Assembly: GCA_029051735.1 (NCBI GenBank)
Contig: JAIDKZ010000060.1
Coordinates: 1-49,735, forward strand
Length of the DNA: 49,735 nt
Reading direction: 5' to 3'
Source of the DNA: Anaeroplasmataceae bacterium
GTDB lineage: Bacteria; Bacillota_I; Bacilli_A; Acholeplasmatales; Anaeroplasmataceae
Numbering within the stretch: position 1 is the first letter of the stretch; every line of letters begins with the position of its first letter. A program made the translations under genes and the position numbers. The notes under the pieces were generated by a model. That model worked only from the letters and a program-made list of their open reading frames with translations. It was not told the origin of the DNA and did not search any database. Positions 2,210 to 42,499 of this stretch are shown piece by piece.

Positions 2210-3193
2210 ATGGCAATCTTATTAGGAAAAAAAGTAAAAATTTTCAGTTTATCTGCAAATAGACCTTTAGCAGAAGAAATCGCAGAATCTATTGGTGTGC
2301 CACTATCTAGTTGTGACATTATGCATTTTGCTGATGGTGAAATTAATGTGCAAATTAATGAGACTGTAAGAGGGCATAATGTTTTTATTATACAGCCAAC
2401 ATCAAATCCTGTGAATGATAACTTAATGGAAGTATTGATTATGTGTGATGCTTTAAAAAGAGCATCTGCTAAAACAATCAATTTAGTTATTCCTTATTAT
2501 GGTTATTCTCGTCAGGATAGAAAAAGTAGAAGTCGTCAACCAATTTCAGCAAAGTTAGTTGCAGATTTATTACAGGTTGCAGGAGTGAATCGAATTATTT
2601 GTATGGACATTCATGCCGCACAAATTCAAGGATTTTTTAATATCCCAGTTGATAATTTTATAGGATTACCAATTCTTGTAAACTATTTATTAGATAAAAA
2701 TTTAAGTGATGTTGTTGTTGTATCTCCAGATCATGGTGGAACAACAAGAGCACGTGAATTTGCCAAGGTACTTGATACAACAATTGCAATTATAGATAAG
2801 CGTCGTCCTGAACCAAATAAGGCTGAGGTTATGAATATTATTGGTACCGTTGAAGGAAAAACTTGTATATTAGTTGATGATATGGTAGATACTGCTGGAA
2901 CATTAACTGCTGGAGCTGCTGCATTAATGGCTGCTGGAGCTAAAGAGGTTTATGCTGCATGCACACATGGTGTTTTATCTGGTTCTGCAATTGAACGAAT
3001 TCAAAATTCATGTTTAAAGGAAATGATTATTACCAATACAATACGTCTAGATGAAAGCAAACAAATTGATAAGATTAAGGTTTTATCTGTTGGTACATTA
3101 TTAGGACATGGTATTTTGAGAATCTTATCTGATGAACCTTTGTCTGGATTATTCACATACTCCTATGATAAATCAAAAAGAGAATTATTATAA
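2210..3193 (+). CDS. prs: Ribose-phosphate pyrophosphokinase
   Basis: [56 protein letters not shown]. The track start 2192 lies in the RBS (ATGGAGGG); ATG 2210 is preferred. Confidence 0.95.
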
Positions 3194-3759
3194 TGAAATT
3201 AATTGTTGGATTAGGTAATCCTGGAAAGGATTATGAAAGAACAAGGCATAATGTTGGCTTTATGGCACTGGATGGTTTTGCTCAAAAGCATTCTATAGAA
3301 TTTAAACTTGAACCTAAATTTAAAGGTATGCTTGCAACTATAAATTTAAATGGGAATAAAGCTTTATTGTTAAAGCCTATGACCTATATGAATTTATCAG
3401 GAGAAAGTGTCAAAGCAGTAATGAGTTTTTACAAGATTAACATTGAAGATATCCTAGTTATATCAGATGATCTTGATAGTAAAACTGCTAGAGTTCGGCT
3501 TCGTGCAAATGGTAGTGCTGGTGGGCACAATGGCCATAAAAGCATTATGATGAATTTGAAGACAGAGGAGTATAAGCGAATAAAAATAGGTATTGATCGT
3601 AGTTCGGTTATTCCTGTTGTAGACTGGGTATTACAGAAATTTTCTTCAGATGAAATTTTAGCATTACAAAATTCATTTGAAAAAAGCACAGCTGCGATTG
3701 AGGATTTTATTAATGAAATCCCTTTTAATAAAATCGCATCTTTGTATTCTTCTAAATAA
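3193..3759 (+). CDS. pth: Peptidyl-tRNA hydrolase
   Basis: [23 protein letters not shown]...LKPMTYMNLSGESV...GSAGGHNGHKSI. TAATG overlap with prs. Confidence 0.96.
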   Translation: MKLIVGLGNPGKDYERTRHNVGFMALDGFAQKHSIEFKLEPKFKGMLATINLNGNKALLLKPMTYMNLSGESVKAVMSFYKINIEDILVISDDLDSKTARVRLRANGSAGGHNGHKSIMMNLKTEEYKRIKIGIDRSSVIPVVDWVLQKFSSDEILALQNSFEKSTAAIEDFINEIPFNKIASLYSSK

Positions 3760-3765
3760 AATTTG

Positions 3766-3807
3766 GCCTTTCATGCTTATAAAAAGCATTTAAGGCTTTT
3801 CTTTTTT
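3766..3807 (+). terminator. Rho-independent terminator after pth
   Basis: GCCTTTCATGCTT-ATAAA-AAGCATTTAAGGC followed by a T-rich tract. Confidence 0.7.
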
Positions 3808-3878
3808 ACAAAAAACATTATTATTTTACGATAATTTAATGTATAATAAAATATGCTACTTAAAAAGGGGGAACTCAT

Positions 3879-4922
3879 ATGTTAGCATCAACATTAACGG
3901 GAGTACAATATTTTTTAAATGCTTTGTTTTTAGTGGCAGGAATTGTTTTTTTAGTCAAAGGAGCTGACTATTTTGTAGATTCTGCTTCAGTAATTGCAAA
4001 AAGATTGAAGATACCACCAATCATTATAGGACTTACCATTGTATCTTTTGGAACATCCGCACCAGAGTTAGCAGTAGGAATAGCTTCAAGTATTAAAGGA
4101 GAAGCTGGGCTTTCTTTGGGAAATGTGGTTGGGTCAAATATAGCAAATTTGACACTTGTTTTAGGAATGTCAATCTTGATCCATCCAATTATTGTAAAAA
4201 AGGGATTATGTAAAAAGGAAATTCCATTTTTGATTATAGCGACTGTACTTTTAATTGTATTTTCCATGGACAACCTTTTATCTGGTTTTTCTGGTGTACA
4301 AAATATAATTTCACGAGGAGAGGCCGTTGTTTTTATTTTAGGAATTGTTTTATTTTGTATTATGTCAATCAAAGGGGCTCAACAAGAGGAACTGAAATTA
4401 GAAAAAGAAGAAATTGAAACATTTGATCCATTGTGGAAAACCTTATTGTTATTGTTTATTGGTCTAATTGGAATTATTGCTGGAGCTGAATTTGTTACAA
4501 CTCCTGCATCTAAAATTGCAACATCTATTGGGGTTACTGTAGGTATTGATGAGGCATTAATGCTCAATGTGGTTGGATTAACTGTTGTTGCGGTTGGAAC
4601 TTCTTTACCAGAGTTAGTTACTTCAGCAATAGCGGCAAAACGTAAACAAAATGAAATTGCGATTGGTAATGTGATTGGATCAAATGTTTTCAATATTTTA
4701 TTCATTTGCGGTATAACTGGTATGATTCGACCACTCACCCTAACACCAGACATTATTACTGATATGATTATCTCTTTATTATTTACTATTCTTGTTTTTG
4801 GGTTTGCAAAAACAGGATTATTAAAAAAATGGTATGGAGCAATTTTATTGGGTGGATATGTCCTTTATATTATGTACATCATTTTGAGATTGTTTTACCC
4901 TAATGCTTTACTTCCACTATAA
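3879..4922 (+). CDS. Calcium/sodium antiporter (CaCA family, YrbG-like)
   Basis: Duplicated alpha-repeats: GLTIVSFGTSAPELAVGIASS...GNVVGSNIANL and GLTVVAVGTSLPELVTSAIAA...GNVIGSNVFN. Confidence 0.92.
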   Translation: MLASTLTGVQYFLNALFLVAGIVFLVKGADYFVDSASVIAKRLKIPPIIIGLTIVSFGTSAPELAVGIASSIKGEAGLSLGNVVGSNIANLTLVLGMSILIHPIIVKKGLCKKEIPFLIIATVLLIVFSMDNLLSGFSGVQNIISRGEAVVFILGIVLFCIMSIKGAQQEELKLEKEEIETFDPLWKTLLLLFIGLIGIIAGAEFVTTPASKIATSIGVTVGIDEALMLNVVGLTVVAVGTSLPELVTSAIAAKRKQNEIAIGNVIGSNVFNILFICGITGMIRPLTLTPDIITDMIISLLFTILVFGFAKTGLLKKWYGAILLGGYVLYIMYIILRLFYPNALLPL

Positions 4923-4949
4923 CAATTACAAAATTAGAGGTGTTAAACA

Positions 4950-5792
4950 ATGATAAAAGCAAACTATCATAGTCATTTATTTTATTGTAATCATGCTGTT
5001 GGGAATGCAAAAGATTATATTGAAGTTGCACTTAAGGCGGGATTTAAAGAAATTGGAATTACAGATCACGCACCTGTTTTTGCGTTTACCATGACAGAAC
5101 AAGAGTATCATAAGGTGTTTTATCATAAGCCTATGCTTTTAGATCAAATGTATCAGCAATATTTACCAGAGCTTGAGGTAGCAAAAAAAACTTATAAAAA
5201 TCAAATAAAAGTTTTATCTGGTTTTGAAACAGAATACATTCCTGCCAATGCTTTTTTTCTTCCAGTTTTAAGAAAAGCAGTAGACTATTTAAATTTAGGA
5301 GTTCACTATTTTGAATATAAAAATAAAATATATGATACGTATCATGATGTAAATTATGAAACAATTTATGGATATTTAGATGCCTGTATTAAAGGAATGG
5401 AAACGCATCTTTTTAATACATTGGTACATCCAGATTTATTTATGTTTTCGTATCAATCAGAAAATGGAAAAAGAGTGTTTGATGAGCATTGTGAATATGT
5501 AACAAAAAGAATAATAGAATGTGCAATTCAAAATGATGTTTATTTAGAGATTAATGCCAATGGGATTAAAAATTCAAAACGATTCTCAAAAGAAGGTGTT
5601 TGGTTATATCCTAATAAAGAGTTTTGGATGCTGGTAAAGCAATATCCATCAGCTAAAATTATTATTGGTGCTGATGCACATTCACCTGATGATTTAGCAG
5701 GAGATAATGTATTAAAAGTAGAACAATTTGCAAAAGATCTTAAATTAAATGTATTATCCTTTATGGAGGTAAAAAAATATGAAAATTTATAA
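4950..5792 (+). CDS. PHP-domain histidinol-phosphatase-like protein
   Basis: MIKANYHSHLFYCNHAVG..., GITDHAPVFAF, VHPDLF, IIGADAHSPDDL, as in the PHP family (HisK/HisJ-like). Confidence 0.82.
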   Translation: MIKANYHSHLFYCNHAVGNAKDYIEVALKAGFKEIGITDHAPVFAFTMTEQEYHKVFYHKPMLLDQMYQQYLPELEVAKKTYKNQIKVLSGFETEYIPANAFFLPVLRKAVDYLNLGVHYFEYKNKIYDTYHDVNYETIYGYLDACIKGMETHLFNTLVHPDLFMFSYQSENGKRVFDEHCEYVTKRIIECAIQNDVYLEINANGIKNSKRFSKEGVWLYPNKEFWMLVKQYPSAKIIIGADAHSPDDLAGDNVLKVEQFAKDLKLNVLSFMEVKKYENL

Positions 5793-7104
5793 TATAAAAA
5801 AGAATTGGGAATATTGGTTTTTTGAAGAACAAGAAGAATTCTATGAAGTTTTAGAAAATACATTAAATAAAGGTTATCAAATTATTGATTCTTTTCATCT
5901 TTGTGTTGAGGTAAAAAAAGATAGCCATAAAATTATTTTCTCTTTTATTGAACAAGAAGTTGTGGATGAAACAATTAAAGATAGAATAAAAGAAATGGAT
6001 AAGTCTTATCAATTAGTATATCCAAGTTATGAGACATGTATATTAAATACAATTTCTTCCATCAGGAAAAGTTATAATAGACCTATTTATTATGATACTG
6101 ATCCTAAAATTGACTCAATTTTAGCAGAAAAAAAATATAAAAATATTATTATAATGCTATTAGATGGATTAGGAGAAAATATTTTAGATAAACATAGTAA
6201 AGATAATGCTTTTTTAAAGAGATATCATAGTTTTACAAATACTGCTATTTATCCATCTACGACAGCTGCTTCTACCACTTCAACTAAAAATGGCTTGGCC
6301 CCTATTTGTACAGGATGGTTAGGATGGGAAAATTATTTTAAAGAAATTGATCGTAATATTATCTTATTTAATGGCAAAAATTATTTTACAGAAGAGCCCA
6401 CAGGCTTTAATGTTTATAAGGCACTTCCTTATACTTTCTTTTATGATGATTTGGATGTGAATGGAAGTATTATAGAACCAGATTTTTCTAAAGAGGAAAG
6501 AGATTTTAAAGAAATTCTTCAAAATAGTTTAAAGAACTTAAAGAAGAATCGAGATAATATCCAGTATGTATATTTTACAGATCCAGATGGATTATTACAT
6601 GAGTTTGGTACAAGAGACATTCAAATCACAAAATGCATTGATGAAATAAATAATGCCTTAGAGGAATACGTTTCAAAACTACCTTCAGATACTCTATTAA
6701 TTATTTCTGCTGATCATGGACATACTGATGTCAAACCAATTGAACTTCATGCATGTAAAACAATACAAAAGATGTTGAAACGGAGTCCATCCAATGATTC
6801 TAGATGTATTACATTCTGCGTATTAGATGAATATAAAGAATCTTTTATGGAAACCTTTAAAGCATTATTTGGCTATGCTTATGATATTTATCCATCTAGT
6901 GAATTAATTGATAAAGAATTTTTTGGAAAAAGAACAGATGTTCCATCTCCATATGTTAAGGATTTTTTAGCAGATTTTGTTGCGGTTGCAAAAAACGAAT
7001 ATTATTTTAATTATAAATCAAACGATAATATGGTTTTTAAAAGTCATCATGCAGGGATAACTGCAGATGAAATGTTAGTTCCTGTTATTATATATAGGAA
7101 ATAA
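5779..7104 (+). CDS. Alkaline-phosphatase-superfamily / nucleotide pyrophosphatase-like protein with an N-terminal extension
   Basis: IIIMLLDGLGENIL, TAIYPSTTAASTTSTKNGLAP, LLIISADHGHTD, FKSHHAG metal-site motifs. Start overlaps the end of the PHP gene. Confidence 0.82.
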   Translation: MKIYNIKKNWEYWFFEEQEEFYEVLENTLNKGYQIIDSFHLCVEVKKDSHKIIFSFIEQEVVDETIKDRIKEMDKSYQLVYPSYETCILNTISSIRKSYNRPIYYDTDPKIDSILAEKKYKNIIIMLLDGLGENILDKHSKDNAFLKRYHSFTNTAIYPSTTAASTTSTKNGLAPICTGWLGWENYFKEIDRNIILFNGKNYFTEEPTGFNVYKALPYTFFYDDLDVNGSIIEPDFSKEERDFKEILQNSLKNLKKNRDNIQYVYFTDPDGLLHEFGTRDIQITKCIDEINNALEEYVSKLPSDTLLIISADHGHTDVKPIELHACKTIQKMLKRSPSNDSRCITFCVLDEYKESFMETFKALFGYAYDIYPSSELIDKEFFGKRTDVPSPYVKDFLADFVAVAKNEYYFNYKSNDNMVFKSHHAGITADEMLVPVIIYRK

Positions 7105-39435: not shown

Positions 39436-39450
39436 AAGTTCTTTTCCAAT

Positions 39451-39479
39451 AGGTGCTATTACAACAATAGCATCTTTTT
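39451..39479 (+). terminator. Rho-independent terminator at the end of the ribosomal operon
   Basis: GGTGCTATT-acaac-AATAGCATC then TTTTT. Confidence 0.7.
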
Positions 39480-39512
39480 GGCTTTTTTGCAGTAAGGATG
39501 TGAGTAGACCAA

Positions 39513-40052
39513 GTGAAAGGTGACGTAAAAGAAATCAATAAGCTAATACTTCGAATTTCAAAGAATGATGAAATGGCTTTAGAAACATTATTTAATATTA
39601 CAAAAGAAAAAATGTATTTTATTGCTTATGAAATTTTAACAAATTCAAATTATGTTGATGACGTATTATCAGAGGCTTATTTAAAAATCTATAAGAATGC
39701 TAAATACTTTAATCCAAAATTGAATGGATTTAATTGGATCTATGAAATTGTTAAAAATACTGCAATAGATTTAAATCGAAAAACAAAGAACGAAAAAATA
39801 GTTAAATTAGATGAGAGTATAATTAGCAATTATACATCGCATACTTACAAAATGGATAATAAAGTTTTAAGAAGTGCATTAAAAAGTTTAACTCAAGAAG
39901 AACAACAAATTATCTATTTGAAAATATGGGAACGATATACTTTAAAAGATATTGCAAAGCGATTGGATAAGAACTTAACTTATGTTCATAGGAAGTATAT
40001 TCAATCCCTAGAAAAATTAAAATCCTTAATGGATGAGGAATATGGGGGATAG
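39513..40052 (+). CDS. ECF-like sigma-70 family RNA polymerase sigma factor
   Basis: Region 2-like YFIAYEILTNSNYVDDVLSEAYLKIYKNAKYFNPKLNGFNWIYEIVKNTAIDLNRK and region 4-like LKSLTQEEQQIIYLKIWERYTLKDIAKRLDKNLTYVHRKYIQSLEKLK. GTG start. Confidence 0.87.
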   Translation: MKGDVKEINKLILRISKNDEMALETLFNITKEKMYFIAYEILTNSNYVDDVLSEAYLKIYKNAKYFNPKLNGFNWIYEIVKNTAIDLNRKTKNEKIVKLDESIISNYTSHTYKMDNKVLRSALKSLTQEEQQIIYLKIWERYTLKDIAKRLDKNLTYVHRKYIQSLEKLKSLMDEEYGG

Positions 40053-40053
40053 T

Positions 40054-40719
40054 ATGAAATATAAAAAAATTGAAACAGAAATAAATCAAAGGATTGATAA
40101 AAGTAATCAAGTCTCTAAATCTATTTTGGATAAAGCTAAAATGGAAATGCAAAATGAAAGAGTTCAATTATTTTTACAAGGAAAGATTGGAAATCGTAAA
40201 AGAAGTTTGTTTTCTATTTGTTTAATGCCAATTATGGCAGCTATTATAGTAATCATGTCTATTTTTTCTTTAATTAATTTATATAAAAGAGAACCTATTT
40301 TAAGAGGAACAGACATTTTTGCTTATAATTTTACTAAGCTTAGTCGAAAAGAAACAATTTCTATAGAAGAATACAATCATAACTACAATCAAAAAGTAAA
40401 ATGGGTACAAAACGCTACACCTAAGGTTACTTATGAGTATTATTATAGAAACAAAACGATTTTATTAGAAGAACAATATGAATTAGAAGAAATTCAAGTG
40501 AATTTATTTGTTTCTTCTTTATTACTGCCAACTGATTTTAGAGATTTCAATGATTTTTCTAATCGAATAAACATAGAAGAATTATATATTTATTATGATT
40601 ATGTTGATGGAATGTTTATAGCAAGAATGTCAATAATGCAATATATTTATTGTTTTGAGATGAATAATATAGATGTAGAAGAAGCAATCACATTTCTGGT
40701 AGATTTTTCAAAGAACTAG
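40054..40719 (+). CDS. Single-TM protein next to the ECF sigma, putative anti-sigma factor
   Basis: About 50-aa charged cytosolic N-terminus, TM LFSICLMPIMAAIIVIMSIFSLINLY, about 135-aa exported C-terminus. Follows the sigma gene directly. Confidence 0.6.
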   Translation: MKYKKIETEINQRIDKSNQVSKSILDKAKMEMQNERVQLFLQGKIGNRKRSLFSICLMPIMAAIIVIMSIFSLINLYKREPILRGTDIFAYNFTKLSRKETISIEEYNHNYNQKVKWVQNATPKVTYEYYYRNKTILLEEQYELEEIQVNLFVSSLLLPTDFRDFNDFSNRINIEELYIYYDYVDGMFIARMSIMQYIYCFEMNNIDVEEAITFLVDFSKN

Positions 40720-40738
40720 GGCTTTCCCTAGTTTTTTA
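40714..40738 (+). terminator. Rho-independent terminator after the putative anti-sigma gene
   Basis: AACTAGGG-cttt-CCCTAGTT TTTT; overlaps the stop codon. Confidence 0.75.
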
Positions 40739-40754
40739 CATTTTTTTACAAAAA

Positions 40755-40798
40755 TTTCACAAAAAGTGAAAAAAATTGAAAGATTTTACGTATATAGT
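40755..40798 (+). promoter_or_regulatory. Candidate ECF-type promoter and inverted repeat upstream of the secreted-protein gene
   Basis: TTTCAC-N5-GTGAAA perfect inverted repeat (40755-40771). GAAAA (from 40767), 17 bp, CGTA (40789-40792) resembles a GAAAC/CGTM ECF promoter layout. Confidence 0.4.
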
Positions 40799-40827
40799 GT
40801 GTAGAAAGGAGGAAAAGTTTAGTATTT

Positions 40828-42063
40828 ATGAAAAAAGTTGGTTTATTTGCTTTAATGAGTGTTTTAATAGTCGTATCAGTTTTATTTGGTTTTAAAGCAG
40901 CTGCACAGGAATTAAGTCCTTACCAGAAGTGCTTAGAGATAAATGAATATCTATTATCAAATTTCAGTGAATTAAAAAATAGCTATAATTCTAATCATGA
41001 GGACAAGCTTTCTGCAGATAGTCTTGAAGGTTTTTCTTTAATTAAAATATTAGATGATGAATGTTATGGAATATATGCAGACTTTAATGATAATTTTGGC
41101 TATATGTTGATGGATTTTGATTTTAGAGTATATGAAATAAAAACAGTTGGAGATTTAGAGTATTTAAAAGATGTGAAATTTGCTTATTATCATACTGTAG
41201 ATGGATTTATGTATGAACAAGATGGCAAGCTTGTGAAGTATAATGAGATTGAGACTGAAGAGGTCACACTAGATGGTGCTGGGCAACTTGGAAGCGGAGA
41301 AGGTTTGATTTATAGTTTGTCAACATATGTTGCTGATCAATATCCAAACGCAACACTAGCAGAAACTCAAGAGAAGGCTTTGGCTAAGTATGCATTTACA
41401 ACTAGCCAAATCAGAACATCATATTATGTAATTGAGAAAGGTGCAACAGTAAAGCCTGAAGATAATTGTGCAATTACAGCGGCATTTAATGTTTTAACCG
41501 CACTTCATTATATGGATTTTATGCCAGGTGTTCCAGACAAATCAGATACAGTAGATTTATCCTTGATAGTCATTGTGGATCAATTTTATGATGATTATGG
41601 AACAGGAAATAATTCTAAAGGATATACAGTAAATAATAAAGAATATTTAAGAAAAACTTATGAAACTTATAGAATTATAAGAAATTATGCTGTACAGAAT
41701 TTAGGGTATAAGCCAGATCATGGATTAACAACTAGTCAAACAAAAACACTTATAGATTATGGTTCTAGTCATTATAATCATCCTGTAAACTGGAAGCAAG
41801 AAAGTACATTTTCAAATGCTAAAAATAGTTTAGATGAAGGACGTGCAGTTCTTGTAGGACTTGTCAATAGTAAAGATTATGGAAATCATGCTGTAGCTGC
41901 ATTAGGATATAGACGATATACAGTTACTACAAATTGGGGCTCTTATACTAGCACAACAAACTATTACTTTTTAGTGTTAGATGATGGCGTAAATAGTATG
42001 TTTGTTTATTATGATTTAGCGAAGGCAACAGGAAGTATAAAGACCGAATATATTTTTTATTAA
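40828..42063 (+). CDS. Secreted papain-fold (C39/C10-like) cysteine-peptidase-like protein
   Basis: Signal peptide MKKVGLFALMSVLIVVSVLFGFKAAAQ; putative catalytic Cys in EDNCAITAAFNVLTALHY; putative His in KDYGNHAVAALGYRRY; then YYFLVLDDG. Family assignment tentative. Confidence 0.6.
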   Translation: MKKVGLFALMSVLIVVSVLFGFKAAAQELSPYQKCLEINEYLLSNFSELKNSYNSNHEDKLSADSLEGFSLIKILDDECYGIYADFNDNFGYMLMDFDFRVYEIKTVGDLEYLKDVKFAYYHTVDGFMYEQDGKLVKYNEIETEEVTLDGAGQLGSGEGLIYSLSTYVADQYPNATLAETQEKALAKYAFTTSQIRTSYYVIEKGATVKPEDNCAITAAFNVLTALHYMDFMPGVPDKSDTVDLSLIVIVDQFYDDYGTGNNSKGYTVNNKEYLRKTYETYRIIRNYAVQNLGYKPDHGLTTSQTKTLIDYGSSHYNHPVNWKQESTFSNAKNSLDEGRAVLVGLVNSKDYGNHAVAALGYRRYTVTTNWGSYTSTTNYYFLVLDDGVNSMFVYYDLAKATGSIKTEYIFY

Positions 42064-42132
42064 AAAGAAGTTGTTATTCGACAAAGAATTATCTTTTTTA
42101 TTAAATTGTCAGTGTATTATATTAATGTTCGA

Positions 42133-42281
42133 ATGAACGATAGAATGTTAGGGAAATGTTTGTTGTTAGAAATGGATAAAAAAATTAATATGTTAATATA
42201 TAAGGCCGGAACACGTTAAAAGCGATTCTTGGACATGATGGCATGTCAATAATGATTTGGGTAACTTTGTATAAAAGATGA
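42133..42281 (+). pseudogene. Remnant of a tyrosine recombinase (integrase) C-terminus
   Basis: Frame 1 MNDRMLGKCLLLEMDKKINMLIYKAGTR*, then shifted frame (42213-42281) TLKAILGHDGMSIMIWVTLYKR*. Resembles the integrase C-terminal pattern 'xxAGxxLKxILGHxxxxxTxxxYxxV'. Confidence 0.45.
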
Positions 42282-42385
42282 GGGGGACATATTAATTTTT
42301 AGTTGAATTTATGAATCAACAGCAAATATAAAATTTTATATAGGTTTAATGGATATAATACACTTTGAACCTTAGCATTTTATCC

Positions 42386-42414
42386 TTATCTAATATTTTT
42401 ATAATATTAGATAA
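42386..42414 (+). repeat. 12-bp perfect inverted repeat
   Basis: TTATCTAATATT-tttat-AATATTAGATAA. Confidence 0.85.
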
Positions 42415-42421
42415 ATTTAAT

Positions 42422-42457
42422 AGACCATAGAAAAACTCTATGGTCTTTTTATTTTTT
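42422..42457 (+). terminator. Strong Rho-independent terminator
   Basis: AGACCATAGA-aaaac-TCTATGGTCT followed by TTTTTATTTTTTT. Confidence 0.85.
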
Positions 42458-42499
42458 TAAATTTATTATATAATAAGGAATGTTTAGGGGTGACATTCC

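Follow-up and report, generated by a model that had tools for sequence, protein, structure and literature searches.

A probable ECF sigma switch for a secreted papain-like protease in the Anaeroplasmataceae

Three genes behind the ribosomal operon of an Anaeroplasmataceae bacterium, encoding an ECF sigma factor, a single-span membrane protein and a secreted papain-fold protein, are best explained as an ECF switch in which the sigma factor and a probable membrane anti-sigma factor control a secreted papain-like protease. We consider this explanation likely. The genes were studied in a stretch of 49,735 nucleotides, hereafter the window; the window and all loci compared with it are metagenome-assembled (MAG) sequence. 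A sequence-only reading had placed three open reading frames within positions 39440–42063 and taken them for a small signalling module. The frames were borne out and that interpretation largely holds. Its taxon, Erysipelotrichia, was wrong: the named relatives are Anaeroplasmataceae, such as Anaeroplasma bactoclasticum, and uncultured Mollicutes MAGs. The Anaeroplasmataceae lineage is known as wall-less. The features are as follows, in window coordinates.

39451..39475, + strand: terminator-like hairpin behind rplQ, AGGTGCTATT-ACAAC-AATAGCATCT with a T-rich tail (-14.3 kcal/mol, z -5.3)
39513..40052, + strand: ECF sigma factor, 179 aa, GTG start (TIGR02937; Pfam r2 and r4; genus orthologues)
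40054..40719, + strand: one-span membrane protein of 221 aa, probably an anti-sigma factor (adjoins sigma; AlphaFold2 model; weak RseB-like matches)
40710..40737, + strand: intrinsic terminator overlapping the 3' end of the membrane-protein gene (-12.5 kcal/mol, z -4.6)
40767..40794, + strand: ECF-type promoter TGAAAA-N16-CGTATA (-35 at 40767–40772, -10 at 40789–40794)
40807..40812, + strand: possible ribosome-binding site AGGAGG, read from the sequence, 15 nt before the protease ATG
40828..42063, + strand: secreted papain-fold protein, 411 aa (AlphaFold2, Foldseek, alignments)
41467..41469, + strand: putative catalytic Cys214 codon (EDNCAITAAFN), first helix residue in the model, as in papain
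41887..41889, + strand: putative catalytic His354 codon (GNHAVAALGY), kept in 32/32 aligned family sequences
41983..41985, + strand: putative third active-site residue, Asp386 codon (LDDG), Asp or Asn in 32/32

The three genes are conserved together. They occur in the same order, sigma, membrane protein, protease, in five genomes of the genus (G000, G002, G005, G008 and G010, that is, the window and four others), the sigma gene of G008 lying at a contig end with its start not intact in the assembly. These triads occupy two chromosomal sites. One is before RlmI-/PepP-like genes, from which an ABC transporter gene separates the triad in the window and G008; the other is flanked by a pyruvate kinase/MarR/phosphoesterase cluster on one side and comEA/comEC-like genes on the other. 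In the window, a 436-nt AT-rich gap (42064–42499) with no significant RNA-family match separates the protease gene from the ABC transporter gene. The protease is present in 10 of the 11 genus genomes and in 16 of 160 genomes of the whole order. Counting against a switch, four genus genomes (G004, G006, G007 and G009) carry the protease without a cis-linked sigma gene, so that the protease can function independently of an adjoining sigma; where the protease is at a contig end, as in G001, one G006 copy and a second copy each in G002 and G007, linkage is unreadable. G004 does encode related sigmas elsewhere in its genome. No plasmid-borne relatives were found.

The sigma factor is assigned with confidence, as the sequence-only reading had it. 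Its sequence scores 75.0 bits against the NCBIfam profile TIGR02937 (sigma70-ECF; cut-off 42.9), 30.5 against Pfam Sigma70_r2 over residues 33–92 (cut-off 24) and 34.4 against Sigma70_r4 over residues 122–170 (cut-off 24.1). Sigma2 and sigma4 domains with no sigma3 between them, in a protein within about 160–200 aa, place it among the ECF (group 4) factors. Orthologues in the genus are 41–48% identical. The sigmas of the genus triads form one clade (97/92) with those of three Clostridia loci (L115, L130 and L183), apart from the other sampled ECFs of the order; the sigma of a fourth, L124, is too diverged for placement in the tree. A second ECF locus in G005 (contig C49; L068, reverse complement, 3038–6489) has a sigma that branches beside this clade. 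It also encodes a 454-aa membrane protein, whose ectodomain carries the RsgI-like motif 'MDINPSV', and a 503-aa lipoprotein carrying 'LDINPAIEL', which resembles that motif.

How the sigma gene itself is expressed differs between the genomes. In the window no promoter can be recognised for it, and it lies downstream of the rplQ terminator, confirmed by folding; this points to read-through from the ribosomal operon. The proposed place behind rplQ holds for the window and is not common to the relatives with readable upstream DNA, so the rplQ neighbourhood is incidental. By inspection, three sigma genes, those of G002 and G005 plus the orphan in G004, have TTGNNA/TATAAT-type promoters, with no ECF motif seen upstream of any of them. 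As sigma genes with readable upstream DNA are not preceded by an ECF site, and the window's assembly has a single such site, before the protease gene, the window's switch looks, from its sequence, like a one-target, non-autoregulated device.

The second gene most likely starts at ATG 40054, one base past the sigma stop codon and just downstream of GGGGGA; a start at 40033 was rejected in its favour. Its product had been read as a single-TM protein of the size and layout of an anti-sigma factor, and one membrane-spanning helix is indeed predicted, at about residues 54–77. The AlphaFold2 model (pLDDT 72) places a cytoplasmic helix at about residues 2–44 and a mixed alpha/beta ectodomain at about residues 95–221. 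Beside an ECF sigma, with a single TM and an ectodomain, the protein has the layout of class I ASD-type anti-sigma factors. Foldseek relates the predicted ectodomain weakly to the RseB fold (prob 0.7–0.9, TM-score about 0.25, E about 0.4). Besides the weakness of these matches, the following weigh against the switch: the cytoplasmic helix is modelled at low confidence (pLDDT about 50–65); neither Pfam nor NCBIfam gives the protein a significant match, to an anti-sigma domain model or any other; and it has no HxxxCxxC motif.

The missing anti-sigma domain is also what would be expected if the membrane protein were not an anti-sigma factor at all but an unrelated exported sensor or a partner of the protease, with sigma controlled by its amount or by other regulators. 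Two homologues in G004 adjoin protease genes with no sigma gene next to them, as this alternative would have it; G004, however, has its related sigmas elsewhere. Moreover, in all five genus triads the membrane-protein gene lies directly 3' of sigma with tight or overlapping spacing, the short cytoplasmic part, one TM and ectodomain are the layout of membrane anti-sigmas, and a similarly placed one-span protein stands beside sigma in Clostridia loci. We therefore regard this alternative as very unlikely and the membrane protein as a probable anti-sigma factor. The G004 homologues form a duplicated membrane-protein and protease pair (contig C6; L058:4126-8369) in which the first protease copy is broken.

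A link between the sigma factor and the third gene is supported by the promoter. In 5/5 triads (two by eye) a terminator lies between the sigma/membrane-protein pair and the protease gene: that of the window, at 40710–40737, was confirmed by folding, equivalent terminators fold in L053 and L054, and similar hairpins were seen by eye in L055 and L056. Beyond it, [TG]GAAAA-N16/17-CGTATA lies 51–66 nt upstream of the protease ATG in every triad, within intergenic regions that are otherwise diverged (56–69% identical). One base separates the motif from the SigW consensus published for B. subtilis, TGAAACN16,17CGTA (PMC2375139). In order-1 Markov shuffles of the same regions, the chance of a match was at most 6e-4 (0.06%) per region, and across 398 kb of strand sequence from the window and the compared loci, five of the six sites matching the pattern are those of the protease genes.

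Genome-wide regulon scans were made as pattern searches. In the 1.55 Mb assembly that contains the window, TGAAA-N16-19-CGTATA has a single match, the site before the protease gene; a reversed control pattern has 11. A looser GAAAAA pattern finds three sites in G000, two in G005, one in G010 and four in G008, one in each genome being upstream of the protease gene; it misses the intergenic site of G002 because that site reads TGAAAAG, but the TGAAA pattern recovers it. The promoter at 40767–40794 is established by conservation, and the neighbouring sigma would be the factor that uses it. The claim that sigma drives the third gene is strongly supported at the level of sequence by this ECF-type promoter, present in 5/5 triads and unique in the window's genome.

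The same data bear on whether the neighbourhood is fortuitous, with the protease expressed independently of sigma and the promoter match an AT-rich coincidence. The region is very AT-rich, and the protease lacks sigma linkage in several genus members and in most distant relatives. Against coincidence stand the single genome-wide site, the 5/5 conservation within diverged flanks, and the fact that a Christensenella-like genome again shows both sigma linkage and ECF-like sites; chance is, in our view, extremely improbable. Two further candidates were set aside. Repeated TGAAAAAAATCGTCGTTTCACTCGTATA sites in G004 were considered as promoters and, on inspection, read as the coding starts of signal peptides (MKKIVVSLV...). 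An RNA element between the genes was also rejected, Rfam giving just one weak, meaningless match.

The third gene encodes a signal peptide (about residues 1–26), an N-terminal domain (about 31–140) and a papain-like domain (about 164–411). The AlphaFold2 model, built from an alignment of 25 relatives, has a pLDDT of 89.4 and a pTM of 0.85, and the best Foldseek matches in the PDB are staphopain B (prob 0.99), falcipains and calpains, at E values of only around 1e-3. Model and matches agree on the papain fold first suggested by the Cys and His motifs, specifically the papain-like fold of clan CA. In the model, Cys214 starts a helix (214–228), His354 lies in a strand (352–370) and Asp386 follows the next strand (373–385), an arrangement also seen in papain. 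Of the 32 aligned sequences, L115 alone has lost Cys214, carrying Tyr instead, and just two have Asn rather than Asp at position 386. With Cys, His and Asp all present, the inactive papain-fold protein that had been offered as an option is unlikely here. We infer that the secreted protein, whose Cys-His-Asp set is complete, is a papain-like cysteine peptidase and would carry out proteolysis outside the cell. The N-terminal domain, alpha/beta in the model, holds many of the most-conserved columns (Y83, D85, F86, G91, G108) and is probably a propeptide.

The family to which this protein belongs has no name. Its matches to Pfam Peptidase_C39_2 (PF13529; E=0.0057, 17.7 bits, cut-off 24) and Peptidase_C10 (PF01640; E=0.033, 14.8 bits, cut-off 26) are weak and fall below the curated cut-offs, and membership of either was rejected; 10 of the 25 relatives match C39_2 at E<=0.01. 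A PDB sequence search returned no meaningful relative. The earlier remark that no named system has this combination stands: family libraries name neither the membrane protein nor the secreted protein, and our literature search found nothing on a combination of sigma, membrane protein and papain-like protease, nor, in the library consulted, any link from Anaeroplasma bactoclasticum to extracellular proteolysis. An anti-phage defence system was rejected, PADLOC matching none of the three proteins.

Relatives of the secreted protein were found at 31 loci in GTDB genomes, mostly Clostridia MAGs, and a sigma with a one-span membrane protein stands beside the family in four Clostridia loci. The gene order in L115 is sigma, membrane protein, radical SAM and a protease-like protein with the C to Y change. 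In L183 (G160, contig C16) and L130 (G163), sigma and membrane protein are followed by the N-terminal domain alone, and in L124 the sigma pair is divergent from radical SAM, protease and lipoprotein genes. Same-clade sigmas lie beside exported-family members in two Clostridia genomes. Sigma-linked members fall in separate subclades of the protease tree with unlinked lineages between them; hence, there has been more than one gain or loss of linkage. In G161, GAAAAA-N14/15-CGTCTA sites precede the membrane-protein, radical-SAM and protease genes; they are 3 of 20 genome-wide matches to a loose pattern, two of them intergenic, and the one before the membrane-protein gene falls within the coding end of sigma. 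The targets in L115 and L130 are preceded by similar, less clear sequences. A small lipoprotein gene lies 3' of the protease-like gene in most distant relatives (L110, L114, L116, L117, L118, L121, L124, L125, L129, L132, L181 and L182), in several tandem copies in L124, L129 and L182, and is absent from the window's branch.

Since the peptidase part can be inactive (C to Y) or missing in distant Clostridia modules, catalysis is not always the output. This bears on the main rival explanation, in which the exported protein serves for feedback, either instead of acting as an effector or in addition to it, and the sigma/anti-sigma pair is built around its N-terminal domain, which might bind the anti-sigma ectodomain or report on export or folding outside the cell. 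The Tyr in L115, the L130 and L183 triads that keep only this domain (encoded at L130:5840-6607 and, in reverse complement, L183 1373-1975, with no papain domain) and its wealth of most-conserved columns all fit such a role. A propeptide would equally be an N-terminal domain, however, and the intact Cys/His/Asp in 5/5 Anaeroplasmataceae triads argues against feedback being the whole story. The idea that the exported N-terminal domain shares its ancestry with the anti-sigma ectodomain was rejected, hhalign finding no relation between the exported protein and the anti-sigma, which speaks to origin and not to binding. On balance we judge the feedback role distinctly unlikely and prefer the ECF switch for a secreted protease.

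A radical-SAM/SPASM maturase accompanies one branch (L115:6449-7795, L124:6314-7657, L129:10816-12114 and, on the reverse strand, L206:3234-4514). Its best NCBIfam match is PapB-like, at about 131–135 bits and far under the cut-off of 340, and the copies are 55–61% identical to that of L115. The maturase was found in four genomes only, G160, G161, G162 and G544, with no further example in a sample of 396 genomes from the order of G161. Papain-like proteins with a C-terminal -[PSA]RC are encoded in precisely the same four genomes; there are five of them, one being a distant relative whose gene adjoins that of the maturase in G544. This co-occurrence suggests that the maturase may modify the C-terminal Arg-Cys of an exported protein. 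A broader proposal would join these strands into a new family of ECF switches in Mollicutes-related bacteria and Clostridia, each serving one exported papain-family protein whose constant N-terminal domain feeds back on the anti-sigma ectodomain, with the peptidase active, dead or lost and, in one Clostridia branch, radical-SAM modification of the C-terminal -Arg-Cys. We offer it tentatively, as unlikely in its entirety.

For the window, we propose the following course of events. Sigma and the membrane protein would be made together at a basal level, by read-through in the window and from the housekeeping-type promoters seen in its relatives. The short cytoplasmic N-terminus of the anti-sigma would keep sigma at the membrane, while its possibly RseB-like ectodomain would sense something outside. 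On a signal, the anti-sigma would be cleaved, probably first by a site-1 protease and next by the genome's M50 protease (present in 11/11 genus genomes) acting as site-2 protease. Released sigma would transcribe the protease gene from the ECF promoter, and the product would be exported as a zymogen-like protein, a probable propeptide joined to a papain-like peptidase, to be activated and to act outside the cell. With no ECF site seen before the sigma genes, the switch seems to operate without self-amplification.

Parts of this scheme have counterparts in known systems. Like Bacillus SigW-RsiW and SigV-RsiV, the window has an ECF sigma with its membrane partner directly downstream, and its promoter is almost identical to the SigW consensus. 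Unlike the Bacillus pairs, it has one recognisable target rather than a broad regulon, that target is papain-like, no ECF site precedes the sigma genes, no anti-sigma domain is recognised and the host lineage is one known as wall-less. E. coli RseA/RseB, which controls sigma-E, shares the membrane anti-sigma layout and, weakly in the model, the RseB-like ectodomain, whereas in the window the membrane protein would itself contain the RseB-like part, as a fusion, if the weak resemblance is real. Staphopain (C47) and other papain-like secreted zymogens share the papain fold, the Cys/His/Asp-or-Asn set, secretion and an extra N-terminal domain; the window's protein, in contrast, has no detectable sequence similarity to solved proteases, a different, conserved N-terminal domain and an ECF-type promoter. 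ECF regulons are usually broader and autoregulated. The window's system is of a known kind, an ECF switch with an adjoining exported target, and is unusual in its apparent single target and apparent lack of autoregulation, and in its unnamed protease family.

The triad would provide a minimal, testable circuit from an uncultured gut lineage, comprising one sigma, a membrane partner, a promoter and a secreted protease. Its single-site regulon would be a clean case for studying sigma specificity and may also help to identify the surface cues that such a bacterium perceives. Finally, it reveals an unnamed family of exported papain-like proteins that is repeatedly linked to regulatory genes and, in one branch, to a radical-SAM enzyme.
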